A stretch of DNA of 64,000 bases, taken from contig CAIKYB010000040.1 of the NCBI GenBank assembly GCA_903831575.1, positions 124,001 to 188,000 of the forward strand, given 5' to 3'. This document shows, piece after piece, positions 15,797-33,013 of the stretch (its first letter is position 1; every line of letters starts with the position of its first letter). The notes beneath the pieces are model-generated. The model searched no databases. It worked only from the letters and a program-made list of their open reading frames with translations, and was not told the origin of the DNA. This stretch comes from an uncultured Bacteroidota bacterium (GTDB lineage: Bacteria; Bacteroidota; Bacteroidia; Chitinophagales; Chitinophagaceae). The position numbers were made by a program, and so were the translations under genes.

Positions 15797-17704
15797 TTAG
15801 TCTGGCTTTTTACCATCTAAAAAAGTATTGATCGTGCTTAATTCTATCTTATTGTCTTCAGTCGGTTTAACTGTATAATTACTATAGAATGTTTCAACAT
15901 CTGCAATCTGAACCGTCATGTCCATATTGCGGCGAAGGTAAGCTGGTACAGTTTCAAACTCATTGTTTGGATCGGCAGCATTTACATTGAACGATAAGTT
16001 ACGCAGTTTTGCTATCCTTTCCGTAGCCCGGCGCCTAAGTTCTTCTGTTTCGTCCTGCAAAGCGGGCTCCTCAACAGTAGAATTCATGATGGGCTGAATT
16101 TGTTGTACAAGCGACTCCTCCGCCGCTGTTGGGAAATCTTTAACGACCAACTGCATTTCAATAGCAGGTTCGTCTTCCTGATCTGAACTCTGCAATGGGT
16201 GTTGATCTTCAATAGAATTGGATTCAGAAGTAATTGGCCTTTCCTCTGCATAAATTTGCATTGGTTTAGCCAAATAGCTACCTGACGAAAGGTTGCTAGC
16301 ATTATTAAAGTCTTCAATAATTTTATTTTCAGTTGATGAAACATTTTTAGGTTCTGCTATTGGAAGGTCTTTCTTTGGTTCAGCAGATATTTCTTCAAAA
16401 GATAGTTTAGTAGTTGGGATTTGATCAAATGAAGAAGATATTTCAAAAAAAACTGACTCATCTGATTCTTCCTCAACAGCAAAACTTATAATAGGGTCAA
16501 CCTCATCATACTCCGCTATTGTAGGCATCATCGGATCAATCGTGGATGAATTTTCTGGGATATCTTTTACAAGAGTGGTTTCAATTTCAGCAACAGGCAA
16601 TGCTGTTTTCTTTGTGTCTAAAATAATCTCAGATGTAACGGGTATAGAGAATGCCGGTTCTTTAGGAATGTCTAATTCAAAAACAATCTTGTCTGTTTCT
16701 AAAGATTTTTCGATTTTTGAATGTTGAGAAAAAGGGTCTTTATGATTAAATCCTGTAGCAATAAGGGTTATACCAATGTTATTTCCCAAAGTATTGTCAT
16801 AGCCTAATCCTAAAATCACATCAGTATCTTCTCCTGCTTCTGATAATAAATGATTTTGTATCACTTCCACTTCGTCCATAGTAAATTCGTGTTCTCCTTC
16901 TGCACTATTAATATTAATTAAAATCCACTTCGCACCTCTGATTTCACTGTCATTTAACAATGGAGAGGTCAAGGCGTTTTCGATTGCTATCTGTGCTCTG
17001 TTTTCTCCTTCTGCAGTTGAACTTCCTAATATTGCCACGCCGCCTTCGCTCATTACGGTACAAACATCCGCGAAATCGACATTAATTTGACCGGTACTAT
17101 TAATGACATCTGTAATACATTTTGCAGCAGTTGCCAAAACATTATCCGCTCTGCCAAAAGCTTCTTTCATTTTTAAATTCCCAAACTGGTGACGAAGTTT
17201 ATCATTGCTTATTACCAATAAAGTATCTACATGATCTTTTAATTGATTAATACCCGCCTGTGCTTGAGCTAATCTTTTTTTGCCTTCATACGCAAATGGA
17301 GTTGTTACAATTCCTACCGTCAGAATGCCTAATTCTTTACAGATTTGAGCAATGATTGGTGCGCCACCAGTTCCTGTACCGCCACCCATGCCTGCTGTGA
17401 TGAAGGCCATCTTGGTATTCACTTCCAAAATACGCTTAATTTCTTCCAGACTTTCTTCAGTAGCCTGACGACCAATTGAAGGATTCGCTCCCGCACCCAA
17501 ACCTTGTGTAAGGGTTGGACCAAGCTGTATTTTATTAGGCACTTTACTCAATGCTATTGCTTGCGCATCTGTGTTGCAAATGATAAAATTCACCCCTTCA
17601 ATGTTTTGAGAAAACATGTGATTAACAGCATTGCTACCACCTCCACCTACACCAATTACTTTGATGATGGAGGATTGTTCTTTAGGTAAATCAAAATGAA
17701 TCAT
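15797..17704 (-). CDS. ftsZ: Cell division protein FtsZ
   Basis: 635 residues. The tubulin-like GTPase domain fills the first ~320 residues, with VIGVGGGGSNAVNHM near the N-terminus and the tubulin signature GGGTGTGG at 107-114. A long acidic linker follows, rich in Glu, Pro and Ser. Near residue 575 is VPAYLRRN, resembling the conserved FtsA-binding tail peptide of other FtsZs. Unlike in E. coli it is not terminal: about 50 more residues follow, ending NTFLDGKKPD. FtsZ polymerises into the division ring. It is last in the dcw cluster, 63 bp after ftsA. Confidence 0.98.
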   Translation of the reverse strand: MIHFDLPKEQSSIIKVIGVGGGGSNAVNHMFSQNIEGVNFIICNTDAQAIALSKVPNKIQLGPTLTQGLGAGANPSIGRQATEESLEEIKRILEVNTKMAFITAGMGGGTGTGGAPIIAQICKELGILTVGIVTTPFAYEGKKRLAQAQAGINQLKDHVDTLLVISNDKLRHQFGNLKMKEAFGRADNVLATAAKCITDVINSTGQINVDFADVCTVMSEGGVAILGSSTAEGENRAQIAIENALTSPLLNDSEIRGAKWILININSAEGEHEFTMDEVEVIQNHLLSEAGEDTDVILGLGYDNTLGNNIGITLIATGFNHKDPFSQHSKIEKSLETDKIVFELDIPKEPAFSIPVTSEIILDTKKTALPVAEIETTLVKDIPENSSTIDPMMPTIAEYDEVDPIISFAVEEESDESVFFEISSSFDQIPTTKLSFEEISAEPKKDLPIAEPKNVSSTENKIIEDFNNASNLSSGSYLAKPMQIYAEERPITSESNSIEDQHPLQSSDQEDEPAIEMQLVVKDFPTAAEESLVQQIQPIMNSTVEEPALQDETEELRRRATERIAKLRNLSFNVNAADPNNEFETVPAYLRRNMDMTVQIADVETFYSNYTVKPTEDNKIELSTINTFLDGKKPD

Positions 17705-17767
17705 ATTGTTAAAATTATGGGTTAGTATATGGGTTATTGTTAGTTCTTTTTATTATTCGTCCTGTAT

Positions 17768-19210
17768 TTAGAATTTAGTATCCTCTTCCTCTTTGAAAAT
17801 GTCTATTAAGTTATCTTTGAATGAATCCAAAAATGCCTTTAATGACTTACGCTGTGTAACAGCAACACCTTTTGTTTCTGTTGCTTCTTCAGGTACAATA
17901 GGTTCTGTAACTGTTTCATCTTCAACGATGGAGGGCTCATTCACGAGTACAGGCTGTCCCATCTTGATAAAATTAGCAGACATCTGCTTTTGTTTATTTT
18001 CATAATCATTATACCCTTTTAGAATCAAGCCGATACAAGTACTGTACATTGGCATGGCAATTTCATCATTGTGTTCTCCTGATAAATGTTCATTAGGAAA
18101 ACCTATTCGAGCATTCAATCCCGTTAAATATTCAGTTAATTGCAAAAGATGTTTTAATTGCGAACCACCACCAGTTAAGATAATGCCACCATTAAGCATG
18201 CGATTATCCAACCCAACTTGCTTTAAATGAAATGAAACAAAATCCATAATTTCACTCATACGCGCCTGGATAATATTTGCAAGATTTTTTACTGAAATTT
18301 CTTTTGGTGCCAATCCACGCAAACCTGGAATAGTAATAAATGTATTCGCTTTAGCCTCATCACTTAATGCACTACCGAATTGAACTTTCATGGCCTCTGC
18401 CTGAGTTTTTAAAACACCCAATCCCAACTTGATGTCGTTAGTAATATTTTCTCCTCCGAAAGGTATCACTGCTGTATATTTCAACACACCTTCATGAAAT
18501 ACAGCAAGATCAGTAGTTCCGCCGCCGATATCAACAATGGCCACTCCAGCTTCCAAATCTTGATCACTCATAACAGCTGCTGCAGATGCTAGTGGTTGTA
18601 AAACCAAATCCTTTGTAATCAAACCAGACTTCTCAACGCTTCTATTGATGTTGCGAATTGCATTTTTGTCACCTGTGATAATATGAAAATTAGCACCGAC
18701 TTTTACCCCGCTGTATCCAATTGGATTTGCAATATTCGGAAAATTATCTACGGTAAATTGTTGCGGAATAACATCTATGATTTGATCACCCAATGGAATG
18801 TAGGTACGATATTGATCAGCAACCAATCTGTCAATCTCATCCTGACAAATTTCATCTTCCGTATTTTGTCTGACAATATCTCCCCTTGTTTGCAAACTCT
18901 TAATATGTTGTCCTGCGATACCAACATAAACTTCATTGATTTGTAACTCAGGATTATTTTCATAACATCTTTCCAAAGCTGTTTGGATTGCTTTGATGGT
19001 CTGGTCGATATTTAAAACCATACCATGTTGTACTCCATTACTATTAGCACGCCCAAATCCAAGGATTTCAAGCTTGCCAAATTCGTTTTTTCTTCCCGCG
19101 ATAGCGGCAATTTTTGTAGTGCCTATATCTAGACCTACAATAATGGGTTGTTCGTGACTCATAGTGTTTGTTTGTGTGATTGTTTGTATGATTTGTTCTT
19201 TTGTTTCCAT
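17768..19210 (-). CDS. ftsA: Cell division protein FtsA
   Basis: 480 residues; Met17 (MSHEQPIIVGLDIGTTKIAA) is an equally plausible start. The actin-like fold shows the phosphate-1 motif GLDIGTTK, the phosphate-2 motif VDIGGGTTD and a later adenosine-site motif GIILTGGGSQL. The C-terminal stretch SLKAFLDSFKDNLIDIFKEEE is the expected amphipathic membrane-targeting helix. FtsA tethers FtsZ filaments to the membrane. It lies between ftsQ (46-bp gap) and ftsZ. Confidence 0.97.
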   Translation of the reverse strand: METKEQIIQTITQTNTMSHEQPIIVGLDIGTTKIAAIAGRKNEFGKLEILGFGRANSNGVQHGMVLNIDQTIKAIQTALERCYENNPELQINEVYVGIAGQHIKSLQTRGDIVRQNTEDEICQDEIDRLVADQYRTYIPLGDQIIDVIPQQFTVDNFPNIANPIGYSGVKVGANFHIITGDKNAIRNINRSVEKSGLITKDLVLQPLASAAAVMSDQDLEAGVAIVDIGGGTTDLAVFHEGVLKYTAVIPFGGENITNDIKLGLGVLKTQAEAMKVQFGSALSDEAKANTFITIPGLRGLAPKEISVKNLANIIQARMSEIMDFVSFHLKQVGLDNRMLNGGIILTGGGSQLKHLLQLTEYLTGLNARIGFPNEHLSGEHNDEIAMPMYSTCIGLILKGYNDYENKQKQMSANFIKMGQPVLVNEPSIVEDETVTEPIVPEEATETKGVAVTQRKSLKAFLDSFKDNLIDIFKEEEDTKF

Positions 19211-19256
19211 TTTATTTTATATTTTTTATACCTTTTCTATTACAATTGAATTGATG

Positions 19257-20438
19257 TTATTTTTTCTTCCTTACTGATTTATGTTTTGATGTTTTTATAA
19301 TTTTAGCTGGTTTTTTATTTGTTGTTTTTTCTTTCGATTTTTGGACTTTATTTATTCCTTCCTTACTTTTTATTCCAGGCTTTGCAATAATTTCATTCGG
19401 CTTCACAGCTTTTGGAGCTTCCTGGACTTTCATTTCTATTTTCTGTGGAATTACAGTTGCATTATCCTCGACTTCATCTCTTGAAAAAGACTGTAAAATC
19501 ATTGTCATATCTGTGGTATTGATAGCATTATCCTGCACAAGAGTCTGTGTGGTATCACCTGCCATTCGCAAAGAATAATCTGCCATTGCTTTCATCATAG
19601 CCATTGTTCTTAAAGAATCTGCTTTAACATCTTCAATTCCTTTTATACTCGCAACAATTTGTCCTGAAAAGTCAAGTCTAATTTTATTATACTTTTTCCA
19701 TCCATAAATAGGAATTATTTTTTTATAGAATAAGGTAAACTTCTCAAATTTGTCCTCCATATTTTTATCATCACCAAATAAAATAAGTTGTTCGCCCATT
19801 TTAGGTATCAATTCAAAATGGTTTTGTTCAACTATATTCACCTGGTCTATCATTGCCATTAAAAAACTGTCCTTTTGAATATACAAACTCATTTGTTTTA
19901 TGCCTTTTAACAAAGTACTATCCGCTTTAGACATCACTTTAAATGAAGTTGGAAAATTCGTAAAAACGGGAAGTCTTGCAGAGTGCCTACTGCTTAATGG
20001 AAGAATGTTCAAAGTTTGATCTATATAAAAAGAATTGCCATCTATCGCAAAGATTCTTGCTACAGGATCTTTCTCAATAATATCTGCTTTCAATAACCCA
20101 TTCTTATCAAAATACAATTCTGCTTTGCTAACCCATACATCTTTCTTTAATTCTCTTTCTATAACATCCAGACGGAATTCATTTATAGGTTTCCCTTTTA
20201 TTTTATTGCCAGCTGAATGTTGAATAATCTCAAGAACATCATGCTTATCGATAAAAAAATTATTACTGACACCCAAAATCTCAATATAAAGTCCGGTACA
20301 ACGTTTTGCTTCTTTTACATATAATCCACTAACCAATAAGGTTACTGTGCCCGCACCCAAAAGAATCCAAATGGTAGACAGGATTATTTTTTTGAAATTT
20401 ATTTTCTCTAACAGCTTCATTTTATATTTATTAAACAA
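19257..20438 (-). CDS. ftsQ: Cell division protein FtsQ
   Basis: 393 residues as drawn, overlapping murC by 8 bp. The in-frame ATG at 20420 (MKLLEKINFKKIIL) gives a 387-residue protein starting 10 bp after murC and may be the true start. A short cytoplasmic N-terminus, one membrane helix (about 15-37), then a POTRA-like domain (ILGVSNNFFIDKHDVLEII) and a FtsQ/DivIB beta domain. The C-terminus carries a very basic tail ending SVRKKK. FtsQ organises the FtsB/FtsL part of the divisome. Identification rests on fold order and position between murC and ftsA. Confidence 0.9.
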   Translation of the reverse strand: MFNKYKMKLLEKINFKKIILSTIWILLGAGTVTLLVSGLYVKEAKRCTGLYIEILGVSNNFFIDKHDVLEIIQHSAGNKIKGKPINEFRLDVIERELKKDVWVSKAELYFDKNGLLKADIIEKDPVARIFAIDGNSFYIDQTLNILPLSSRHSARLPVFTNFPTSFKVMSKADSTLLKGIKQMSLYIQKDSFLMAMIDQVNIVEQNHFELIPKMGEQLILFGDDKNMEDKFEKFTLFYKKIIPIYGWKKYNKIRLDFSGQIVASIKGIEDVKADSLRTMAMMKAMADYSLRMAGDTTQTLVQDNAINTTDMTMILQSFSRDEVEDNATVIPQKIEMKVQEAPKAVKPNEIIAKPGIKSKEGINKVQKSKEKTTNKKPAKIIKTSKHKSVRKKK

Positions 20439-21849
20439 CTTGTTCTAAAATATTTTTTATGGGCAATACCATGGTGTCTATATCTCCTGCACCGGCCATA
20501 ATCAACATCTCAATTGTATTATTATTTTTTTCTTTTTTTATACATTCTATCAACGCTTCTTTTGTACAACATGTCGCTTTTTGAACATCCATTTTTGATG
20601 CTACCATTTCGCTTTCTATACCAGCAATCGGCTTTTCTCTTGCAGGATAAATAGGCAACAAAAAAACCTCATCAGCAAGATTTAAAGCAGCAGCAAATCC
20701 CTCAGCAAAATCTCTTGTTCTGCTGTATAAATGTGGTTGAAAAACCACTGTACATTTCTTGTTAGGATACAATCCCTTAGCGCCTTTTATCAAAGCATTT
20801 AATTCCTGAGGATGATGGGCGTAATCATCAATCATAACCATTGAATCATTTTTGATAATATATTCAAACCTTCTTTTTACTCCTTTGAATGCCGAAATAG
20901 CGCTTTTAATTTTATCGTTTGAAATGCCAATTTTTTTGGCAACTGCAATCGAAGCAACCGCGTTCTCAATATTATGAAGACCGCCCATATTCAAAGAGAT
21001 ATTTTCTACAACTTCCTCATTCATTTTCACATCAAATAAATAACTCCCATTAGCAATACTGATATTACTTGCATAACAATTTGCCTTTCTATCATTTAAA
21101 CTGTAGGTAATATTTCGAGGTGATTTAAAATTATCTGAGTTTTCTAAACCATATTTACTGATTAGAATTCCATCTTCCTTAACTTTTCCACTAAATTCAA
21201 CAAACGCTTCTGCGAATTTTTCAACAGTACCATATATGTCAAGATGATCAGGGTCTATTGCTGTTATTATCGCAATATCCGGATTCAATTTCAAAAAACT
21301 TCTGTCATATTCATCAGCTTCTACAACACAAACATTTTTTTCACTTCCCCAAAAATTAGTCTCATAGTTAGAGGCAATCCCACCAAGAAATGCATTGCAT
21401 CCGTATTCGCTGTGTCTGAGTATATGTGCAATCATGGTGCTTGTTGTTGTTTTACCATGAGTGCCAGCAACACAGATATTAAAAGTATCGTGTGTAATTA
21501 ATCCGAGCACTTCACTTCGCTTCATGATAGTATAACCATTCTCTAAAAAAAAGTTGTACTCTTTGTGATCTAAAGAAACAGCAGGTGTATAAATTACTAA
21601 GGCCGCATCTTTATTAATCAAGTCAATATTATCTTCATAATGTATCGCGATTCCTTCTGCTTGCAATTGCATAGTTAGTTGCGTTGCTGTTTTGTCGTAG
21701 CCACTTACTTCCACTCCTCTACTATTAAAATACCTTGCAAGGGCGCTCATACCAATTCCGCCAATACCAATGAAATAAACAGACATAGCGCTACCCTCTC
21801 CAGTTTGAAGTTTGTTGATTACGTTTAGAATATGACTATTGTTTTTCAT
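20431..21849 (-). CDS. murC: UDP-N-acetylmuramate--L-alanine ligase MurC
   Basis: 472 residues. Met22 (MSVYFIGIGGIGMSALARYF) is the more usual start for the family, so the first 21 residues may not be translated. The UDP-binding glycine motif is GIGGIGMSA, the ATP P-loop is GTHGKTT (129-135), and the Mur ligase motifs DPDHLD and DDYAHHP are present. It adds L-Ala to UDP-MurNAc in the cytoplasm. Its ATG overlaps the murG stop codon by 1 nt (TAATG type), so translation is probably coupled. Confidence 0.97.
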   Translation of the reverse strand: MKNNSHILNVINKLQTGEGSAMSVYFIGIGGIGMSALARYFNSRGVEVSGYDKTATQLTMQLQAEGIAIHYEDNIDLINKDAALVIYTPAVSLDHKEYNFFLENGYTIMKRSEVLGLITHDTFNICVAGTHGKTTTSTMIAHILRHSEYGCNAFLGGIASNYETNFWGSEKNVCVVEADEYDRSFLKLNPDIAIITAIDPDHLDIYGTVEKFAEAFVEFSGKVKEDGILISKYGLENSDNFKSPRNITYSLNDRKANCYASNISIANGSYLFDVKMNEEVVENISLNMGGLHNIENAVASIAVAKKIGISNDKIKSAISAFKGVKRRFEYIIKNDSMVMIDDYAHHPQELNALIKGAKGLYPNKKCTVVFQPHLYSRTRDFAEGFAAALNLADEVFLLPIYPAREKPIAGIESEMVASKMDVQKATCCTKEALIECIKKEKNNNTIEMLIMAGAGDIDTMVLPIKNILEQVV

Positions 21850-22943
21850 TAATTTAAATAATTCAAAATTTCCTTTGCCACTATTTCATCTGCATTTAAT
21901 ACACTCATTTTTTTGATATTAACTTTCATTTTTTCTTGCAAATCAATATCATTAATCAAGTCAATTACTTTTGGCATCAATTCTTTTACCGCATTTTTAT
22001 CTGCTACTATCATAGCAGCATTTTTGTCTGCTAATTTTTTTGCATTTACAGTTTGATGATCTTCTGCAGCATGTGGGAAAGGCACAAACACAACAGGCTT
22101 TCCTGTGATACACAATTCTGAAACTGCCATTGCTCCACTACGACTTATAATAACATCTGCGGCTGCGTAAGCATATTCCATCTGAACAATAAAATCACTT
22201 ACGAATACAGTTGCTTTTTCCTTACATTTTGCCATTGCTTTTTCCAAATAAGGCCTTCCTGTTTGCCAGATTAACTGTAATTTTTGTTGTTCAAAGACAT
22301 CAATATTATTATCAATGGCTTCATTGATACTTTTTGCACCAAGACTTCCACCAATAACTAAAACAGTTTTTTTGTCAGTACTTAAATTAAAATGTTTCAA
22401 TCCTTCTGCCTGACTAACCGCCATCTTTACAATCGATGTTCTCACAGGATTTCCACTAACAATAATTTTAGCTAATGGAAAAAACTTTTCCATACCATCT
22501 GTAGCTGTAAAAATTAATGCCGCTTTTTTCCCAAGCATCATGTTGCTTTTTCCTGCAAAAGAATTGGCTTCATGAATAAAGGTCGGGATACCTTTTGCTT
22601 GAGCATATTTCAATACAGGGAAACTAGAATATCCTCCTACACCGATAATGGCATCAGGCTTATACCTTTTTATAATGCTGGAAACCTGAATAAAACTTTG
22701 GATAAGTTTAAAAGGCAATCCAATATTTTTTATCAAAGAACTTCTATTAAATCCTGCAATGGTCAAACCCTCAATTTCATATCCCGCCAGTGGTACTTTT
22801 TCCATTTCCATTTTTCCTTTTGCGCCGATAAAAATAAAGGTCGAATCTGGCGCTATCTTTTTTATCGCGTTAGCAATAGCAATAGCCGGAAAAATATGTC
22901 CCCCAGTTCCTCCTCCCGCTATTATAAATCTCTTGCCTGACAT
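21849..22943 (-). CDS. murG: UDP-GlcNAc:lipid I N-acetylglucosaminyltransferase MurG
   Basis: 364 residues, the usual MurG length. The N-terminal glycine motif is AGGGTGGH (9-16). The second, GT28-type C-terminal domain carries the UDP-GlcNAc site (ISRSGAMAVSELCITGKPVVFVP, with a Glu seven residues after the RSG). It turns lipid I into lipid II on the inner face of the membrane. Placed between ftsW (24-bp gap) and murC, as in most dcw clusters. Confidence 0.97.
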   Translation of the reverse strand: MSGKRFIIAGGGTGGHIFPAIAIANAIKKIAPDSTFIFIGAKGKMEMEKVPLAGYEIEGLTIAGFNRSSLIKNIGLPFKLIQSFIQVSSIIKRYKPDAIIGVGGYSSFPVLKYAQAKGIPTFIHEANSFAGKSNMMLGKKAALIFTATDGMEKFFPLAKIIVSGNPVRTSIVKMAVSQAEGLKHFNLSTDKKTVLVIGGSLGAKSINEAIDNNIDVFEQQKLQLIWQTGRPYLEKAMAKCKEKATVFVSDFIVQMEYAYAAADVIISRSGAMAVSELCITGKPVVFVPFPHAAEDHQTVNAKKLADKNAAMIVADKNAVKELMPKVIDLINDIDLQEKMKVNIKKMSVLNADEIVAKEILNYLN

Positions 22944-22967
22944 GATTCAAATTTTGCTATTAACCTT

Positions 22968-24305
22968 TTATTCCTCAGTTGTATCTTTTACAGCCGTTGC
23001 TTGCTCTTCAATTTTTGCCAATTGCGACCCTTCCAATTGTTCCACATTTCTAGCTACACTTAAAATAATTCCAATAGAAACACAAGTGAAGAAAAAACTA
23101 CTTCCTCCCATGCTTACCAAAGGAAGCGTTACTCCTGTATTAGGAAACAAACTCACATTTACACCCATGTTGGCAATAGCTTGAATAACCAAGGTAAAAC
23201 TCAATGCTAAGGCAAGGAATGCACCAAAAGCAAAAGGACATTTCCTGTAAATTCTGATACATCTGAATAAAAAAAACATGTAAATAAACAACATGAATGC
23301 CGCACCAAACAATCCATACTCTTCTATAATAATTGCATAAATAAAATCACTGTAACAATGTGGTAAAAAATTTCTTTGCACACTATTCCCGGGACCAAGC
23401 CCAAAAAATCCACCATTTGCAATGGCAATTTTTGCCTGATTAATTTGATAAGTTTTTTCGCCATCATCATCTTTCTTACTATATAAAAAAGTTTGAATTC
23501 TACTCACCCATGTTGGCACCCTGCCTGAAGCTAGAAAAACGGGAAGCTTTTTTGACTGGTTCGTTTCTTTATCATAATTAGAAACAGCAACACTTACCAG
23601 CATAATAATTGGCAATAGAGCAATGCCAATAGTCAATAAAATATGTTTTGTGCTTACCCTTCCAATAAACATCAATAAAATACTCGTACCAAAAATGAGC
23701 AACGCAGTAGAGAGATTCGCTGGTGCAATCAATAAGCATATCAATATAACTGGAACGATTATTGGCATAAACCCTTTGAAAAAACTCTTGATAACAAGTT
23801 GTTTTCTACTCAACATTCTGCTCATATACATAAACAAAGCAAGCTTAGCCAAATCAGAAGTTTGAAAGGTCATATTGATTACTGGCAACTTGATCCATCT
23901 GCTCCCCGCATTTAATTCAACTCCAAAAAACAAGGTATAAATCAACAAGGGTATTGATATTAAAAATATATACAAAGCCAGTTTTGAAAAGAACGTATAA
24001 TTAATTCTATGTGTAAAATAAATTACAACTAATCCAACCAATATAAAAGCGAATTGTTTAAATAAATAGCTCTCTGTAGATCTACTCATTCTATATGCCA
24101 ATGAACCAGTACTGCTATAAACCAATAACAAACTAGCTAAAGTTAAAATCAGCACAATAGCCCAGATTATTTTATCCCCTCTCGTTTTGCTGGCAATATT
24201 TGCGGGTACATCTCCGATATTTTTGAACGGTGCACTTACAGCCAATTCTCTTTCATCAGAAAGGCCCAAAAAGTTTTTTACTCTGTTTTTAAATGGCGTC
24301 ATCAC
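22968..24305 (-). CDS. ftsW: Lipid II polymerase FtsW (SEDS family)
   Basis: 445 residues with about ten membrane helices. SEDS features include SRWIKLPVINMTFQTSDLAKLAL and the C-terminal GVTLPLVSMGGSSFF. The extra 30-residue loop with YDKETNQSKKLPVF is typical of the long extracytoplasmic region. SEDS proteins polymerise glycan strands together with a class B penicillin-binding protein, here probably the FtsI at 28829-30952. Start at ATG 24305; MMTPFKNRV precedes a ~45-residue cytoplasmic N-terminus. Confidence 0.95.
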   Translation of the reverse strand: MMTPFKNRVKNFLGLSDERELAVSAPFKNIGDVPANIASKTRGDKIIWAIVLILTLASLLLVYSSTGSLAYRMSRSTESYLFKQFAFILVGLVVIYFTHRINYTFFSKLALYIFLISIPLLIYTLFFGVELNAGSRWIKLPVINMTFQTSDLAKLALFMYMSRMLSRKQLVIKSFFKGFMPIIVPVILICLLIAPANLSTALLIFGTSILLMFIGRVSTKHILLTIGIALLPIIMLVSVAVSNYDKETNQSKKLPVFLASGRVPTWVSRIQTFLYSKKDDDGEKTYQINQAKIAIANGGFFGLGPGNSVQRNFLPHCYSDFIYAIIIEEYGLFGAAFMLFIYMFFLFRCIRIYRKCPFAFGAFLALALSFTLVIQAIANMGVNVSLFPNTGVTLPLVSMGGSSFFFTCVSIGIILSVARNVEQLEGSQLAKIEEQATAVKDTTEE

Positions 24306-24353
24306 TTTATTTCAAGAACATGATTAATTAATTATCGATACTTGTACTCATTA

Positions 24354-25694
24354 TTACAAATCCCGAACAGCTTCCTTAAACTGGTTGCCCCTGTCTTCAT
24401 AATTTTTAAACAAATCAAAACTTGCACAGGCAGGGCTCAGCAATACAACCTCTCCTTTATTTGCATAATGAAAAGCAGATTGAACGGCCTCTTTTGCACT
24501 TTCCGTATCCACAATCAAAGGCACAATCTCTCCGAAGGCTTCATGAATTTTAGCATTATCTGTTCCCATACAAATAATAGCTTTCACTTTTTCTGAAACC
24601 AACTCTTTCAATAAATCATAGTCATTCCCTTTATCAACCCCGCCAAGAATCATAATAACAGGCTTGTTCATGCTTTCCAAAGCATACCAGGTACTATTCA
24701 CGTTAGTGGCCTTGCTGTCATTTATAAACTCTACCCCTTTTATGGTAGCCACTTTCTCCATTCGATGTTGCAAACTTTCAAATGTTTGTAAAGCTTCTCT
24801 TATTTTTTCTTTGCGTATATCCAACGCTGTTGCTGCCATACTTGCTGCCATACTGTTATATTGATTGTGCTTTCCTTTAATAGCAAAATCCTCTACACTC
24901 ATCTGCATCTCTTCATTCTTCCATTTGAGATACATTTTAGCATTTGTCAAATAGGCACCTTGTGGTATTTCTTTACTCATAGTGATGGGAGCTTTGGTTG
25001 ATTTTATGGGATAGTGATTAAGATATTCGTTTGTAGTTTTATCATCAAGATTATAAATGAATACATCTCCTTCTTGCTGATTTGCTGTTATTTTAAATTT
25101 ACTCGAAATGTAATTTTCAATTTTATAGTCATATCTGTCTAAATGATCTTCTGTAATATTTGTAATTACAGCTACCTGTGGGCGAAAGTTTACAATGTCA
25201 TCTAATTGAAATGAACTGATCTCTGCAACATAGATTGATTTTGGATCTTGAGCTACTTGGCGTGCAAAAGAAAATCCAATGTTGCCAACTAATGCACAAT
25301 CTTGTCCTGCATGTTTACAAATATGATAGGTCAATGCAGTTGTTGTAGTTTTACCATTACTACCTGTTATTGCAACTATCTTGCTCTTGCCAATATATCG
25401 ATAGGCAAATTCAATCTCGCTGATGATTGAAATGTTTTTCTCTCTTATTTTTTTGATGATCAATGCCTTTTCAGGAATGCCAGGACTTTTTACAACTTCA
25501 TCTGCATTAAGAATAAGTTCTTCGTCATGTCCGCCTTGCTCAAATGAAATTTGATGATCATTAAGTTCTTTAATGTAGCTGTCTGCGATAGATCCACCAT
25601 CACTTACAAAAACATCAAAGCCTTTTTCCTTGGCAAGTAGTGCTGCGCCTACACCACTTTCACCAGCACCAAGTATGACTACTCTTTTTTTCAT
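24354..25694 (-). CDS. murD: UDP-N-acetylmuramoylalanine--D-glutamate ligase MurD
   Basis: 446 residues. The N-terminal Rossmann motif is LGAGESGVGAA, the P-loop is GSNGKTT (111-117), and the family motifs NITEDHLDRY and FINDSKATNVNST are intact. It adds D-Glu to UDP-MurNAc-L-Ala. It lies 48 bp before ftsW. The 318-bp gap upstream to mraY is unusual for this pair, which are normally adjacent or overlapping, and holds inverted repeats described separately. Confidence 0.97.
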   Translation of the reverse strand: MKKRVVILGAGESGVGAALLAKEKGFDVFVSDGGSIADSYIKELNDHQISFEQGGHDEELILNADEVVKSPGIPEKALIIKKIREKNISIISEIEFAYRYIGKSKIVAITGSNGKTTTTALTYHICKHAGQDCALVGNIGFSFARQVAQDPKSIYVAEISSFQLDDIVNFRPQVAVITNITEDHLDRYDYKIENYISSKFKITANQQEGDVFIYNLDDKTTNEYLNHYPIKSTKAPITMSKEIPQGAYLTNAKMYLKWKNEEMQMSVEDFAIKGKHNQYNSMAASMAATALDIRKEKIREALQTFESLQHRMEKVATIKGVEFINDSKATNVNSTWYALESMNKPVIMILGGVDKGNDYDLLKELVSEKVKAIICMGTDNAKIHEAFGEIVPLIVDTESAKEAVQSAFHYANKGEVVLLSPACASFDLFKNYEDRGNQFKEAVRDL

Positions 25695-25731
25695 TTAGTT
25701 CTTAGATAATTAAATACATGTGTTCAATTTG

Positions 25732-25783
25732 ATCCTACTGAGTTTTAAAACGGATAGTAATCCGAATATAATCTCAGTAGGAT
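25732..25783. repeat. Nested inverted repeat between murD and mraY
   Basis: The outer arms are a perfect 11-bp pair, ATCCTACTGAG (25732-25742) and CTCAGTAGGAT (25773-25783). Inside is a second perfect hairpin, CGGAT with loop AGTA and ATCCG (25751-25764). Neither arm is followed by a long T tract on either strand, so a simple terminator is not favoured. Confidence 0.7.
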
Positions 25784-25875
25784 TAAAAAGGTTCTTCAAT
25801 GGTATTGACATTTACAGGACAATCCTTAAATGTTTTTGTTGGTTAGGACATTCTTTTTTTCGCTTCAACATTAGA

Positions 25876-25899
25876 TTTCACAGTTGATGTACTGTGAAA
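25876..25899. repeat. Perfect 9-bp stem-loop in the murD-mraY gap
   Basis: TTTCACAGT (25876-25884), loop TGATGT, ACTGTGAAA (25891-25899). It could be a protein-binding palindrome or an RNA hairpin; no T tract follows on either strand. Confidence 0.6.
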
Positions 25900-26012
25900 A
25901 CCAACGAAGTTTTGAAAAAATGGTTCTTCAAAAGCATCGAATTTAATGGGTAGTAATTTTCTAAGGGTTGCCGATTAACTTTAAAAACAATTCTTTATTA
26001 ATTCCAAAATAT

Positions 26013-27311
26013 TTATCTCAATTTCAAGGTCACAATTGCAAGTGCCACGCTCAAAATCGTCACAATCCAAAAACGCACAGCAATTTTACTTTCATGAAGA
26101 CCTTTCTTCTGAAAATGATGATGTAGAGGGCTCATTAAAAAAACCCTTCTGCCTTCACCATATTTCTGTTTGGTGTATTTGAAATAACTAACCTGAATCA
26201 TCACGCTCAGATTTTCAATCAAAAACACCATACAAAATATTGGGATTAATAATTCTTTTCTAACAATGATAGCTAAGGCGGCAATAATTCCACCAAGAGC
26301 CAAGCTTCCGGTATCACCCATAAATACTTGCGCGGGATAGGAATTATACCACAAGAAACCAATACACGCTCCAACAAAAGCAGCAATAAAAATGGATAAC
26401 TCGCCAAGGTTGGGGATGTACATAATATTCAAGTACTCTGCAAATTTTATATTGCCACTTACATAAGCGAAAATCCCCAAACAAATACCAATAATGGCAC
26501 TGACACCAGTTGCAAGTCCATCTAAACCATCGGTAATATTGGCACCATTTGAAACGGCTGTTACAATAAAAATAACAATGAGGATATAAATGATATAAGA
26601 GTAATCTTCTAAGTTCTTAGGAAGTAACTTTGCATAATTAAATTCGTGACCTTTTACAAATGGTATTGTAGTGATCACACTTTTCGCATCAGTAAATACT
26701 CTCGTTTTTCCGTCAACACTTATGGTATCGTATTTTATTTTGATTCCTTTTTTATTATAAACTGCTGCTGCATTCGTACTAAGAACTTCTCTTTTTACAA
26801 CAACATTTTGATTAAAATAAAGTGTTGCGCCAACTATAACACCAAGCATCACTTGTCCGAAAATTTTAAACTTACCCGCAAGACCATCCGCATTTGTTTT
26901 TTTGAAATCTATACCTTTTTCTTTGGCGATTTTCTTTGCTTTTATTTTAAGATAATCATCAATAAATCCAATAGCACCCAACCAAACAGTACAAAGCAGC
27001 ATTAACCTGATATATACTTTGTCAAGATTGGCCAACAACAACGTAGGAATAAGAATAGCTAAAATAATAATGATTCCTCCCATTGTAGGCGTCCCTTTCT
27101 TCTGTTCTTCTCCCGCTAACCCCAAATCTCTTACTGTTTCGCCTAATTGTTTTTTCTGTAAAAACTTTATCAACTTCTTTCCGTAAACTGTAGTAATAAT
27201 CAATGATAATATCAGCGCCAACAATATCCGGAAGGTGATGAATTGAAAAAGTCCTCCTCCCGGAAACCGGTAGTGTTCTTTTGCAAACCATTGAAATAGA
27301 TGATAGATCAT
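26013..27311 (-). CDS. mraY: Phospho-N-acetylmuramoyl-pentapeptide transferase MraY
   Basis: 432 residues, longer than the ~360 of E. coli. About ten membrane helices with the conserved [20 protein letters not shown] (the aspartate pair), [22 protein letters not shown] and [11 protein letters not shown] motifs, all intact. The extra length is a ~60-residue insertion around residues 170-235 ([18 protein letters not shown] onward), which is common in Bacteroidota MraY. It makes lipid I from UDP-MurNAc-pentapeptide and undecaprenyl phosphate. It starts 46 bp after murE. murF, normally found between murE and mraY, is missing. Confidence 0.97.
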
Positions 27312-27357
27312 TTTTTATTTTATTGATTTTTCAGTGCTTATTAAAAAATCATTTTTT

Positions 27358-28818
27358 TTATTTTTCCAGCAAGTCAAACATCTCCATTAAAACCTGCTTG
27401 TCGTCAAATTCATATTGTACGCCATTCACTTCTTGGTATTTCTCATGCCCTTTTCCCGCTACTAAAACAATATCTTCTTTTTCTGAAAGACTAACAGCTG
27501 TTTTAATCGCTTCTCTTCGGTCAGAAATGGTAATGGTTTTTTTTCTTGATACCACATTGATGCCCGCTTCCATTTGCTTTAAAATATCAGCTGAATCTTC
27601 AAACCTTGGATTGTCTGATGTTAAAATAACTTTATCGCTATACTGACAAGCAACTGCGGCCATAATAGGACGTTTTGTTTGATCTCTGTTTCCACCACAC
27701 CCTACTACTGTAATAATTTTTTTATCGCCCTTTCTTAAATTCTTAATCGTTACCAACACATTCAACAAGGCATCCGGAGTGTGGGCGTAATCAATAATTC
27801 CAACTACATTTTCATGCTCACTGATAATATAATCAAATCTTCCTTCGGCACCGGTAAGTGTACTAAGAATCTGTAGTACTTGATTTTTATCTTCTCCCAG
27901 ACAAACGGCTACTCCATAAACAGCCAGTAAATTATAAGCGTTAAACTCTCCGATTAATTTAAAATAAACTTCCAGATCATTAATGGTCATGTGCAAACCA
28001 GTTAACCCATTTTCAAGGATTTTTCCTTTGAAATCGGCAAGTGTTTTTAAACTATACAAATATTTTTTTGCAGGAGTATTTTGCAACATCACTAGTCCTC
28101 TTTTGTCATCTGCATTACTTATGGCAAATGCATTTTTCGGCAAGGCATCGAACCATGATTTTTTTACCCTGATGTATTCTTCAAAAGTTTTATGATAATC
28201 CAAATGGTCATGGGTAATGTTACTGAATACGCCGGCACAAAATTCAATTCCAGCGATACGATGCTGATCAATAGCGTGGCTACTACATTCCATGAATACA
28301 TAATCGCATCCTTCATTTACCATTTGACTCAATAAACTATTAAGAGTTATGGCATCAGGTGTCGTATGTGTTGAAGAAATAAACTGTTCGCCAATTTGAT
28401 TTTGCACTGTACTTATCAACCCACATTTATAACCTAAGTTGGTATATAATTTAAAAAGCAATGTAGCGATAGTAGTTTTTCCATTTGTACCGGTAACGCC
28501 TACTACTTTTAATTTCAATGATGGCGCTGCATAAAAGTTATGACTCATTAATCCCACAGCAATGGAGCTATTTACAACTGACACATAAGTAATGCCATCT
28601 ACCATTTTTTCAGGTAGTATTTCGCATATGATAGCCGAAGCGCCATTTTCAATGGCATCCTTAATAAAATCGTGCCCATTTATGGAATAACCTTTCAATG
28701 CAATAAAGCAAGTCCCTGGGGTCACTTTTCTGGAATCAATTTGTAGATTCTTAATGTCAATGGAAGTATCTCCTTTTACAGACTGGATGTTTACCTTATA
28801 TAATATATCCTTTAGCAT
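27358..28818 (-). CDS. murE: UDP-MurNAc-tripeptide synthetase MurE (meso-DAP type)
   Basis: 486 residues. P-loop GTNGKTT (110-116), motif NITHDHLDYH, and the C-terminal DNPR box in ILTSDNPRFED. The DNPR motif marks enzymes that add meso-diaminopimelate rather than lysine, so the wall is predicted to be the A1gamma type usual for Gram-negatives. It lies 10 bp after ftsI and is probably translated from the same mRNA. Confidence 0.97.
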   Translation of the reverse strand: MLKDILYKVNIQSVKGDTSIDIKNLQIDSRKVTPGTCFIALKGYSINGHDFIKDAIENGASAIICEILPEKMVDGITYVSVVNSSIAVGLMSHNFYAAPSLKLKVVGVTGTNGKTTIATLLFKLYTNLGYKCGLISTVQNQIGEQFISSTHTTPDAITLNSLLSQMVNEGCDYVFMECSSHAIDQHRIAGIEFCAGVFSNITHDHLDYHKTFEEYIRVKKSWFDALPKNAFAISNADDKRGLVMLQNTPAKKYLYSLKTLADFKGKILENGLTGLHMTINDLEVYFKLIGEFNAYNLLAVYGVAVCLGEDKNQVLQILSTLTGAEGRFDYIISEHENVVGIIDYAHTPDALLNVLVTIKNLRKGDKKIITVVGCGGNRDQTKRPIMAAVACQYSDKVILTSDNPRFEDSADILKQMEAGINVVSRKKTITISDRREAIKTAVSLSEKEDIVLVAGKGHEKYQEVNGVQYEFDDKQVLMEMFDLLEK

Positions 28819-28828
28819 TGATTGGTGC

Positions 28829-30952
28829 TCAATTGAGCATTAAAATTATTTTTTGTCCTTTTGTAAAATTTGTACCTGCTGCTATACTTTGTGTAACAAC
28901 TTTTCCTCTTCCGGAAACAACAGCTGTTAAACCTTTATTTTCCAATAAATACAAGGCGTCTTTCAAACCCATTCCTTTTACATTGGGTGTTACGAATGCC
29001 ATGTTTAAAGAATCTGATGGATTATTGAGTTGGGCTGCATTACTTTTTAGATTTACATTTCTCCAAGCACCTGATTGTATGGAGTCCTGATAAGAAATAT
29101 TGATGCCTTTAAGAATAGTTTGCAAATCTGTTTTCATTCCAAAATAACTGTAAAGAGTAGAGTCAACAAGAAGTGGCTTTTTTTGACTTTTAGTCAAAAA
29201 TCTTCTGTAGATATGATCACTTACTTTTTTGAAAACTGTTCCTGCCACATCAGCACCATAATATCTTTTCGAATCCTTATTGTTCTGGATTACAACAGCC
29301 ATAGAGTAAATCGGCTTATCAGAAGGAAAATATCCAATAAAAGAAGACTGATAAATTTTATTCCCTTTATTGTAGCCATTATTATCAAGTGCGGTAACTG
29401 CAGTTCCGGTTTTTCCGGATATGGAATATGCACTATCAAATAAAATCCTGTGGCCAGTTCCATGTGCACTATCCACAACTGCTCTCAAACATTCTTTAGC
29501 CTGAGCAATCGTTTCATCGGAACAAATTTTTTCCACTAATATTTCCGGAAGTATTTTCTTTACTTCAATCCCATATTCTTTTACAGAAGAAACCAAATAA
29601 GGCTTCATCATTTTACCATTATTCGCAACGGCATTATATAACATCAACATATGCAAAGGAGTAACCAATTCTTCATACCCATGAGCCATAAACGGAATGG
29701 TTGTTGCACCCCAGCTTTTACTGTTTGGATTTTTGATTGTAGGTCGGCCTGCTGAAGCTACAATATCAATTCCGGTCATTTTATTTAACCTGAAATGATC
29801 CAAATGCTTCCACCATTTCATAGGATCATTTTGATAATATTCAAATGCTAATTTTGCAAAAGCAACATTACTACTTCTTGTAAATGCATCTTTAACAGTT
29901 ATAGTACCTGTTCCTAAATGCGAATCCTGTATTTTCAACCCGTAAAAATATTTTCTTCCTCCTTCACAATCAACAGGTGTGTTAATCGTAACATATTTAT
30001 CTTCCAATAAACTCAATAAAGTAGCCAATTTGAAAATAGATCCCGGCTCTGTTGATTTCCCAATTCCATAATTCAAATCTTCTGTGAAACTGCTGTCCGG
30101 TTGTATTCCGAGATTAGCTATTGCCTTTATTTTACCGGTTGCAGTTTCCATTACAATAACAGTTCCATGTTGAGATTTATTATTCACCATCATATCCATC
30201 AACTCATTTTCTGCAACATCCTGAATATAAGTATCTAATGTGGTGATGATATCTTTACCATTGACTGGGTCTACTTCCGCTCCTTCAACAGGCATATAAG
30301 ATCCTGCTGTGTATCTCATCAATCGTTGGCCTGAAGTTCCTCTTAATAAATAATCATAAGTTTTTTCAAGACCAACGTTTTTTGATGAATCCTTTCTGGA
30401 AAGCCCAATAGTTCTATTGGCTAATAATACATAGGGGTTAATTCTTTTATCACGAATATCATAAATAAAGCCGCTTTTGTTTCTGCCTAATCTTACCAAA
30501 GGGAAACTGCGTAATTCTTTTAAATCATCAAAGGATATTTTTCTTTTCAATAGATAATAACGCTCTGTATTTTTATACGCTAGCTCTAATTGATTTTTAT
30601 AATCTTCTGGTGTCTTGTCTTGGAATAAATTGGCTAAACACAAACTCAAAGAGTCTACATTGTCTTTAAATCTGTATCCGCCTTTTTCTCTTAAGCCTCC
30701 TGCACCAAAATCTACATAGATATCATAAATCGGAACAGATGTACTGAGTATACTTCCATCTTCACTATAAATGGTACCTCTCTCCGCATTAATAGGCATG
30801 TATTTTAAATGAAGACTATCACCCATACTTTTCCAGTAGCTTCCTTCAACTCTTTGAATATAAAATGCTCGTCCTAAAACTAATACTCCCAAAAGTATCA
30901 TGCCTAAGAAGCATAAATAAACTCTCCACAATATGTCTTTTTTGATTTCCAA
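28829..30952 (-). CDS. ftsI: Division-specific transpeptidase FtsI/PBP3 with PASTA domain
   Basis: 707 residues. A short N-terminal cytoplasmic tail and one membrane helix (about 9-28), then a class B dimerisation domain starting near RGTIYSEDG. The transpeptidase domain has SIFK (Ser305-Lys308), SSN (360-362) and KTGT in SISGKTGTAV. The final ~65 residues form one PASTA repeat (VTPNVKGMGLKDALYLLENK). It cross-links septal peptidoglycan in the periplasm, probably paired with FtsW. The PASTA tail resembles Gram-positive homologues and is regular in Bacteroidota. Confidence 0.95.
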   Translation of the reverse strand: MEIKKDILWRVYLCFLGMILLGVLVLGRAFYIQRVEGSYWKSMGDSLHLKYMPINAERGTIYSEDGSILSTSVPIYDIYVDFGAGGLREKGGYRFKDNVDSLSLCLANLFQDKTPEDYKNQLELAYKNTERYYLLKRKISFDDLKELRSFPLVRLGRNKSGFIYDIRDKRINPYVLLANRTIGLSRKDSSKNVGLEKTYDYLLRGTSGQRLMRYTAGSYMPVEGAEVDPVNGKDIITTLDTYIQDVAENELMDMMVNNKSQHGTVIVMETATGKIKAIANLGIQPDSSFTEDLNYGIGKSTEPGSIFKLATLLSLLEDKYVTINTPVDCEGGRKYFYGLKIQDSHLGTGTITVKDAFTRSSNVAFAKLAFEYYQNDPMKWWKHLDHFRLNKMTGIDIVASAGRPTIKNPNSKSWGATTIPFMAHGYEELVTPLHMLMLYNAVANNGKMMKPYLVSSVKEYGIEVKKILPEILVEKICSDETIAQAKECLRAVVDSAHGTGHRILFDSAYSISGKTGTAVTALDNNGYNKGNKIYQSSFIGYFPSDKPIYSMAVVIQNNKDSKRYYGADVAGTVFKKVSDHIYRRFLTKSQKKPLLVDSTLYSYFGMKTDLQTILKGINISYQDSIQSGAWRNVNLKSNAAQLNNPSDSLNMAFVTPNVKGMGLKDALYLLENKGLTAVVSGRGKVVTQSIAAGTNFTKGQKIILMLN

Positions 30953-30984
30953 AAAAAAAACGATTTATTTATTTTTATAAAATA

Positions 30985-31341
30985 TTATTTATTTTTTTGC
31001 ACTGCTGAATCAGAAACCTCAATTATAGTTGGAGGCTCTTTTAATTCCTTAAGTCCTAATGGTTCTACTGCTTTTACAATTTCACTGGGCTTACTCCTAT
31101 AAATCACTTCACTTTTAATCGTCTTGTATTCGTATTCTAATTCCTTTACATTTTTTTCTGACGCGGTTGATTTCCTGATCAATTTATCTGCATAGTGCCC
31201 ATTGTATATATAACCAATTGCCAAGAGGGCTAAAAAAAGAATAAAGGGAATATTTTCAACTATACTGCGATAATTAAAATATTTCTTAATCTCTGATTTT
31301 CCTTTTATTGATGAATCAACTGTTTTATTTTCTTGTTTCAT
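30985..31341 (-). CDS. ftsL: FtsL-like cell division protein
   Basis: 118 residues. An N-terminal cytoplasmic region (KSEIKKYFNYRSIVENI), one membrane helix (about 33-51) and a coiled-coil-like segment (STASEKNVKELEYEYKTIKSEV). This layout and the position between rsmH (10-bp gap) and ftsI fit FtsL, a small divisome protein that works with FtsQ and FtsB. Sequence similarity in this family is low, so the call relies on topology and gene order. The final 25 residues are Pro/Glu-rich. Confidence 0.8.
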   Translation of the reverse strand: MKQENKTVDSSIKGKSEIKKYFNYRSIVENIPFILFLALLAIGYIYNGHYADKLIRKSTASEKNVKELEYEYKTIKSEVIYRSKPSEIVKAVEPLGLKELKEPPTIIEVSDSAVQKNK

Positions 31342-31351
31342 TTATAAACAC

Positions 31352-32311
31352 TTATTTTTTTTCTGCAATTCTAAGCTTTGCGCTTCTTGATCTTGAATTG
31401 CTTTTTATCTCTTGATCAGATGCTACCATTGGTTTTTTTGATATTATTTCCAATTGACTATTTGGTCTGGTTCCAAAAACATCATCCGCTTCTACTTCTT
31501 CATTAGAACCATTTCTAAAAAAATTCTTTACTATTCTATCTTCCAGAGAATGAAATGTTATTAATACTACTCTTCCTCCAGGTTTTAATAATCCAATACA
31601 TTGTTCAAGCATTTCCTTTAGTGACGTAATCTCATCATTAACGGTAATACGTAATGCCTGAAATACTTTTGCATGATATTTATTAGGGTTACCCTTTACA
31701 ATTTGATGAATAGCTTGTTTAAACTGGTTAATTGTTTTAATCGGAGCTATACTTCTTTGTGTAACGATAGTTTTGGCGAGTGTCTTTGCATTGGTTACTT
31801 CTCCATATTTTTCAAAAATCAATTGGAGTTGTTTCTCTGAATAGCTTTCTAGAATTTTAGCTGCAGTTATTGGCTGTCTGTTATCCATACGCATATCCAA
31901 ATCAGCATCAAATCTTGTAGAAAAGCCTCTTGCTGGCTCATCAAACTGATGACTAGATACCCCTAGATCAGCTAAGATTCCATCAACTGCCATAATTTTA
32001 TTCACTCTCAAAAACTTTTGCAAATGCCTGAAATTTTGTTGAATAAAAAAAACCCGATCGTCTTTGGGAACATTTATGCTTGCATCAGCATCCTGATCAA
32101 ATACAAATAGCTTCCCTTGAGGACCTAACTGTTTAAGAATTTCTTTACTATGCCCGCCACCTCCAAATGTGCAATCCACATATATCCCGTCGGGCACAAT
32201 TTTTAATCCTTCCATACATTCATGAAGCATGACTGGAATATGATAACCATTAGTCGATTCTGTTGAATAATCATTGTCAGATGTACTGTTTTCTTTCGAC
32301 ATCATAATCAA
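31352..32311 (-). CDS. rsmH: 16S rRNA (cytosine(1402)-N(4))-methyltransferase RsmH
   Basis: 319 residues. The class I SAM motif is YVDCTFGGGGHS, followed by the RsmH-specific ILADLGVSSHQFDEPARGFS and VLITFHSLEDRIVKNFF. It methylates C1402 in the ribosomal P site. The ATG overlaps the mraZ end by 4 bp. The first ~20 residues (MIMMSKENSTSDNDYSTEST) are low complexity and may not all be translated; Met4 is possible. Confidence 0.96.
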   Translation of the reverse strand: MIMMSKENSTSDNDYSTESTNGYHIPVMLHECMEGLKIVPDGIYVDCTFGGGGHSKEILKQLGPQGKLFVFDQDADASINVPKDDRVFFIQQNFRHLQKFLRVNKIMAVDGILADLGVSSHQFDEPARGFSTRFDADLDMRMDNRQPITAAKILESYSEKQLQLIFEKYGEVTNAKTLAKTIVTQRSIAPIKTINQFKQAIHQIVKGNPNKYHAKVFQALRITVNDEITSLKEMLEQCIGLLKPGGRVVLITFHSLEDRIVKNFFRNGSNEEVEADDVFGTRPNSQLEIISKKPMVASDQEIKSNSRSRSAKLRIAEKK

Positions 32312-32775
32312 CTGTTCAACTTATCATTTTTCCTATTCATTACTTCATTAGCCAAATTGCTAAATGTCTCTGGTGACATTGAGTCAAAGAACTGTTGGTA
32401 TTTTATTTTATCCCAGATTTCAATTTTATTTACAGCAGACACCAAAACGATATCCTTACCTAGGCCGGCGTATTCCATTAAATTCTTAGGTAATAACAAT
32501 CTTCCCGCACCATCAAATTCAATTTGAGTGGCTCCATTTAAAAAATAACGTCTGAACTCTCTAACTTTGGGGTCAAAATCGTTTAATTGGCTGATCTCTT
32601 CAAAAAGTGGTTGCCAACTTTGGATGGGATAAAGGGTGAGGCATTTTTCAAATCCCCTGTTCAATACAAAAGATGCAGCCTCTGTCTCAGGAATTTGTTT
32701 TTTAAATCCTGATGGCAAAAGGAAGCGGCCTTTCGTGTCAATTGTAGATTCATATTCGCCTATGAAACTTATCAT
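32308..32775 (-). CDS. mraZ: Transcriptional regulator MraZ
   Basis: 155 residues with two AbrB-like SpoVT/MraZ half-domains, the first starting at FIGEYESTIDTKGRFLLPSGFK and the second at QIEFDGAGRLLLPKNLMEYAGL. MraZ forms rings that bind short direct repeats in front of its own operon and repress it. Here such phased repeats lie 35-70 bp upstream of the ATG. It is the first gene of the dcw cluster. Confidence 0.96.
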   Translation of the reverse strand: MISFIGEYESTIDTKGRFLLPSGFKKQIPETEAASFVLNRGFEKCLTLYPIQSWQPLFEEISQLNDFDPKVREFRRYFLNGATQIEFDGAGRLLLPKNLMEYAGLGKDIVLVSAVNKIEIWDKIKYQQFFDSMSPETFSNLANEVMNRKNDKLNS

Positions 32776-32809
32776 TTGGGGTTTTTTGGGTTGTTATTCT
32801 AATAATCGA

Positions 32810-32845
32810 CACAAATTAACACTTTTTCCCACTTTATAACACCAA
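32810..32845 (-). promoter_or_regulatory. mraZ: 10-bp-phased GTG repeat array, likely MraZ operator
   Basis: CAC occurs at 32810, 32820, 32830 and 32840, exactly 10 bp apart. On the mraZ coding strand these are four boxes ending in GTG: TTGGTG, AAAGTG, AAAGTG and TTTGTG; the middle two are identical. MraZ sites in E. coli and Mycoplasma are also short GTG-containing direct repeats with 10-bp spacing. The array ends 35 bp before the mraZ ATG, so autoregulation is likely. Confidence 0.65.
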
Positions 32846-32860
32846 ATAAGCAATAGTTTT

Positions 32861-32962
32861 TTATCCACAAATGAGTATAATCATGACTATAAAGGGTTTT
32901 AGGGCTGATTTATGATGTTTTTTAAACAACCGATGTGAATTGATGTGGATAAGTGTGGATAA
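32861..32962. promoter_or_regulatory. Cluster of three perfect DnaA boxes, candidate oriC or DnaA-regulated site
   Basis: TTATCCACA on the plus strand at 32861-32869, and its reverse complement TGTGGATAA at 32944-32952 and 32954-32962, the last two in direct repeat with 10-bp spacing. A degenerate fourth box, TGTGAATTG, lies one more 10-bp step away at 32934. The ~65 bp between the first box and the repeat block is AT-rich and contains no gene. I noticed no other exact copy of this 9-mer in the window. Confidence 0.6.
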
Positions 32963-32966
32963 GATG

Positions 32967-33013
32967 AAGTCCTATACCATATTGACTCAGTAATGGACTG
33001 AGAACTAGGACTT
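32967..33013. repeat. Nested palindrome at the 3' end of the histidine kinase gene
   Basis: Outer arms AAGTCCTA (32967-32974) and TAGGACTT (33006-33013, inside the kinase gene and covering its stop codon). The inner stem is CTCAGT (32986-32991) and ACTGAG (32997-33002) with a 5-nt loop. No T tract follows on the minus strand, so it is an uncertain terminator. It sits beside the DnaA boxes. Confidence 0.5.

Follow-up and report, generated by a model that had tools for sequence, protein, structure and literature searches.

The window, a 64 kb stretch of contig C40 from a Ferruginibacter-like genome (2.44 Mb in 46 contigs), carries a dcw operon on the minus strand. Its first gene is mraZ (32308..32775; Pfam MraZ, E 1.6e-32), whose product finds its best matches in Chitinophagaceae and Ferruginibacter assemblies (closest 93%). 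The remaining dcw genes follow across 15797..32311 (minus strand) and comprise rsmH, ftsL, an ftsI-type transpeptidase gene, murE, mraY, murD, an ftsW-like gene that scores under its curated cut-off, murG, murC, an ORF, ftsA and ftsZ; the ORF (19257-20438), which occupies the usual place of ftsQ, has no NCBIfam match. Upstream of mraZ, a gap of 229 bp, the length given in the initial annotation and borne out by the gene coordinates, leads to a histidine kinase gene (33005-34336, minus strand). Since the kinase gene and mraZ share the same direction, the gap is not divergent.

The gap contains a cluster of DnaA boxes. The promoter-proximal box is an exact match, TTATCCACA, at 32861..32869 on the plus strand; on the coding strand of mraZ this is TGTGGATAA, starting 94 bp before the ATG. 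Two further exact boxes, TGTGGATAA at 32944..32952 and again at 32954..32962 (both minus strand), form a direct repeat of exactly 10 bp in an orientation opposed to the proximal box, and a degenerate fourth box, TGTGAATTG (32934..32942, minus strand), lies one 10-bp register beyond this pair. All four, including the 10-bp phase of the degenerate box, lie where they had been reported. The accompanying estimate of less than one exact 9-mer per 64 kb at even base composition compares with 0.67 copies of TTATCCACA expected and three found, a count that is only mildly unusual in itself and is reached in 4 of 100 mononucleotide-shuffled controls. Genome-wide there are 16 exact TTATCCACA boxes (27 for the reversed control pattern), three of them in the mraZ gap, and with 16 copies only ~3e-6 triplets of such spacing are expected by chance. 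The gap holds the only exact DnaA-box triplet and the densest exact-box cluster in the genome. Tandem boxes of the form TTATYMACA occur at three genome sites: the mraZ gap, the gap upstream of nadA, and a site on contig C34 (21887-21927) that contains TTATCAACA and TTATTCACA. The segment between the mraZ boxes, previously described as AT-rich, is only slightly so (29.7% GC versus 34.5% for the window), unlike the nadA gap.

Conservation was assessed in 80 Chitinophagaceae loci (80 kept of 216 relatives) together with the window, giving 81 sequences, of which L128, L157 and L160 have uncertain mraZ starts. When the best match is taken from a 40-bp interval, a proximal box similar to TGTGGATAA with at most two mismatches is present in all 81 sequences (no mismatch in 41, one in 39 and two in one). 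Relative to the ATG, its position is -92 to -97 in 76 sequences; the other five have it at -82 or -83. The words used are TGTGGATAA (41), TGTGGAAAA (33) and seven others that occur once each; 76 of the 81 fit TGTGNAWAA, and the base that mainly varies is either A or T, in keeping with the DnaA consensus. Upstream boxes in the opposed orientation (TTWTNCACA) are found in 43 of 80 sequences against 1.0 expected, L127 being too short for this count, and 15 sequences have at least two. The distances from upstream to proximal boxes follow a period of 10.4-10.6 bp (57 boxes, resultant 0.80; matched in 0 of 2000 uniform draws), and a period of ~10.5 bp implies that the proximal box and the upstream group lie on one helix face. 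No strict upstream box was found in 37 of the 80 family sequences; thus, only the proximal box is general. Exact boxes number just one or two in most relatives. Of 30 same-genus loci fetched separately, some from genomes that overlap the 80, 22 have one or more exact boxes close to mraZ. Because the sequences are related, these counts are not independent.

The proximal box is directly upstream of a second conserved element in the family sequences. The nearly invariant block AAAGTGGGAAAAAGTGTTATTTTGTG lies downstream of the proximal box, ahead of the ATG, and in the window the corresponding element (GTGTTATAAAGTGGGAAAAAGTGTTAATTTGTGT on the coding strand; 32809..32842, minus strand) consists of GTG repeats every 10 bp in near-invariant alignment columns. 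Published MraZ sites comprise direct repeats of AAAGTG[T/G] in Mollicutes (PMC8475190) and, in Burkholderia, repeats of 7 nt that are built on a GTG core and separated by 3-nt spacers (PMC7761207); GTG is said to be kept in distant bacteria (PMC7761207). The match of this block to the published sites identifies it as a putative MraZ operator. The DnaA boxes adjoin this array but do not follow its 10-bp register: the offset between the proximal box and the array is predominantly 36 bp (41 of 81) or 26 bp (27 of 81), with other or no offset in 13. The conserved bases of the proximal box also lie 3’ of GTGG (AWAA), whereas the AAA or TTT found ahead of GTG in the array shows no conservation there. 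Out of register and with different conserved flanks, the box is read as a DnaA site and not as an additional MraZ repeat. A separate TGGGG-N5-TGGGT motif at 32777-32791 (plus strand), directly upstream of the mraZ ATG, presumably resembles the E. coli MraZ repeat.

The association extends across the class Bacteroidia. Among 51 mraZ loci, 43 could be scored for the consensus TTWTNMACA within 220 bp on either strand, including L290 and L331 with doubtful mraZ starts; the other eight (L279, L283, L288, L291, L320, L321, L325 and L333) have no recognisable mraZ start. A box is present in 37 of the 43 promoters, with 4.5 expected, and outside Chitinophagaceae a DnaA-like box occurs in 33 of 39. This relaxed consensus was set after part of the sequences had been seen, and among the loci freshly fetched afterwards 20 of 21 scored positive. 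The 39 promoters from outside the family include 31 boxes in the TTWTNMACA orientation with a measured distance to the MraZ repeats; 20 of these start 10-12 bp before the first repeat, 17 of them at exactly 11 bp, and their words are TTATTAACA (8), TTTTCAACA (6), TTATCCACA (2), TTATCAACA (2) and TTTTCCACA (2). Many of the class-wide words have A at position 6, unlike the E. coli consensus. However, the cores ATTAACA, ATCAACA and ATCCACA, the same kinds as at mraZ, alternate in the box of the nadA origin region described below; as such variants replace the TTATCCACA type in an origin unwinding box, DnaA plausibly reads them. In other classes only 4 of 23 loci are positive (1.7 expected), yet GTGG repeats of the MraZ type are common there. 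Within the phylum-level genome sample, one family (f29; G092, G124, G151, G165, G169 and G177) shows no MraZ match in any of its six sampled genomes.

The chromosomal origin itself likely lies upstream of nadA in Chitinophagaceae, as judged from sequence signatures and skew. In the window's genome, the nadA gap lies outside the window on contig C16 (~192.4-193.0 kb), has 15-25% GC and contains a tandem TTATTAACA pair. An origin signature, defined as a DnaA box, then a spacer that is short and mostly GC-rich, then three or more TA[AG] trios (the DnaA-trio concept of Richardson et al. 2016, as cited in PMC7561715), is located there at C16:192460-192480 (locus L240). Of the 31 nadA loci scored (among L204-L233, L240 and L293), 29 carry the signature ahead of nadA, against 0.1 expected, and always 184-202 bases before the NadA motif; L294 also has the signature but is left out of the count (31 of 32 scored), as no NadA motif could be located in it. 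With fixed spacing, the signature has a single genome-wide match, lying beside nadA, in each of the window's genome (G000), G098 and G072, three matches in G045, one of which is beside nadA, one match in G159, and none in G122. Skew along the closed same-genus chromosome G045 (3.76 Mb), computed from 40 sampled 20-kb stretches followed by a 495-kb reading, is lowest at position ~460 and highest opposite, near 1.9 Mb. The minimum falls within an AT-rich gap that separates nadA from a gene read from its ORF as PpiD-like. Local skew on C16 shows a weak minimum ~19 kb from nadA. An origin at dnaA was considered and rejected: dnaA is on the same contig as the window, ~90 kb off, its promoter has no consensus DnaA box, and in G045 the gene is 0.56 Mb from the skew minimum. 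A word one mismatch from a DnaA box, GGTGGATAA, is present ~84 bp upstream of dnaA (C40, L042).

These observations bear on the proposal in the initial annotation that the mraZ gap is oriC, which a cumulative GC-skew analysis was to check. Such a reading accommodates the tight exact-box cluster, the transcription of the dcw operon away from the gap, and skew that, over 30 kb, is more strongly negative on the left side (-0.107) than on the right (-0.020). However, skew is negative on both sides, and cumulative skew along the contig drops towards the gap and then stays flat, forming no V; there is thus no sign change at the gap in either window or contig. In G045, mraZ is at 3.227 Mb, 0.53 Mb from the skew minimum and inside the negative-skew arm, and in G098, a closed genome of the same family with weak skew, mraZ lies in the falling arm. 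A distant closed genome, G159, is ambiguous, with a broad sampled minimum at ~2.99 Mb and mraZ nearby at 2.85 Mb; its TTATCCACA cluster at 1.94 Mb, tried as a positive control, failed as such by lying away from the minimum, an outcome that speaks for the origin reading. That cluster comprises five exact TTATCCACA boxes in 168 bp (G159:C1:1941001-1941168; L351). The box, spacer and trio signature that marks the nadA loci is absent from all 81 regions upstream of mraZ (0.16 expected). Given the absence of a skew sign change, the mid-replichore position of mraZ in G045 and the unwinding signature upstream of nadA, the oriC reading is refuted for practical purposes and retains a negligible probability.

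Three further explanations accept a regulatory or binding role for the boxes but assign it differently. MraZ binds GTG-containing repeats every 10 bp, as the tandem TGTGGATAA boxes resemble, so the boxes may be extra operator repeats; the 10-bp spacing of the upstream pair, the GTGG core common to boxes and array, and the activity of MraZ at this promoter in other phyla, as described in PMC7761207 and PMC8475190, are consistent with this. The out-of-register offsets and 3’ conservation of the proximal box argue otherwise, as does the class-wide box, which reads TTWTYMACA on the GTGG-bearing strand and is thus in the opposite orientation; the candidate is mostly rejected on register and orientation and is considered unlikely. 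The density of exact boxes, the highest in the genome, would also suit a DnaA reservoir or reactivation site of the datA or DARS type that lies here by chance, but across many genomes the boxes keep an almost constant distance from mraZ and from the MraZ repeats, and most relatives possess no more than one or two exact boxes, which makes this quite unlikely. Finally, the sites may serve another, unknown transcription factor or a promoter element that resembles a DnaA box. DnaA binding to the boxes is a prediction, and A at position 6 departs from the E. coli consensus in many class-wide words; against this, similar words alternate at the origin unwinding box and position 3 is A or T as in the DnaA consensus, and this explanation is judged very improbable.

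Control of the dcw promoter by DnaA, which the initial annotation had raised as the alternative to an origin, is supported by the conservation of the boxes at fixed promoter positions. The boxes are probably sites at which DnaA, the replication initiator, regulates transcription of the dcw operon. The host encodes a DnaA with the DNA-recognition domain, and its domain IV aligns to that of E. coli DnaA (1J1V, E 2e-20) with GGRDHTTV intact. DnaA would bind the proximal box, which adjoins the core promoter and the MraZ operator on their upstream side, and in Chitinophagaceae the upstream boxes, ~7 to 11 helical turns away, pointing at the proximal box and on the same helix face, may assist it. 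With boxes on one face, DnaA at both sites could loop or polymerise across the gap. From the adjacent repeats, MraZ would repress this promoter too, and the dcw operon would thereby respond to the initiator as well as to the product of its own first gene. Points that weigh against this reading are the absence of a consensus box from the genome's own dnaA promoter, the family sequences that have no strict upstream box, the relatedness of the sequences counted, and the position of mraZ near the broad skew minimum of G159. The predicted effect of DnaA on dcw transcription could be activation or repression; our guess is activation, because the proximal box lies ~55-65 bp upstream of the start site presumed from sequence. 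More broadly, we regard it as an evenly balanced proposition that the dcw head promoter throughout Bacteroidia is a composite DnaA-MraZ switch, in which the initiator, bound next to the MraZ operator, governs transcription of the entire operon and couples division capacity to initiation, and which in Chitinophagaceae has grown into a two-sided array capable of looping.

In Bacillus subtilis, ftsL sits in a mraZ-rsmH-ftsL operon. DnaA is present at the ftsL promoter in vivo (PMC8203912, in the part concerned), which is likewise a division-gene promoter; the loci described here differ in having several conserved boxes ahead of mraZ itself that are linked to the MraZ repeats. Similarly, DnaA binds the ftsZ promoter of Caulobacter crescentus in vitro, again a division-gene promoter, although that case involves ftsZ alone and another phylum, and section 12 of PMC8203912 does not mention an adjacent MraZ operator. 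The DnaA boxes of E. coli ftsQA also lie in the dcw cluster, but within genes, and were found not to regulate ftsZ transcription (PMC8203912, same part); this precedent counts against a DnaA-controlled promoter, whereas the boxes reported here are conserved and located in the head promoter. Among the open-licence PMC articles found by literature searches, no title or abstract opening concerns DnaA boxes at mraZ, and the text matches to mraZ in PMC7561715 are to the author name Mrazek. The DnaA-like site before dcw in 33 of the 39 promoters outside the family, often at fixed spacing to the MraZ repeats, points to a direct link between initiation and division in a large bacterial class, and the same comparisons also place the likely Chitinophagaceae origin. 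Elsewhere in the window's genome, an exact DnaA box (C37:189872; L203:1501-1509) lies ~95 bp upstream of a gyrase-B-type gene, which is possibly another replication gene controlled by DnaA.
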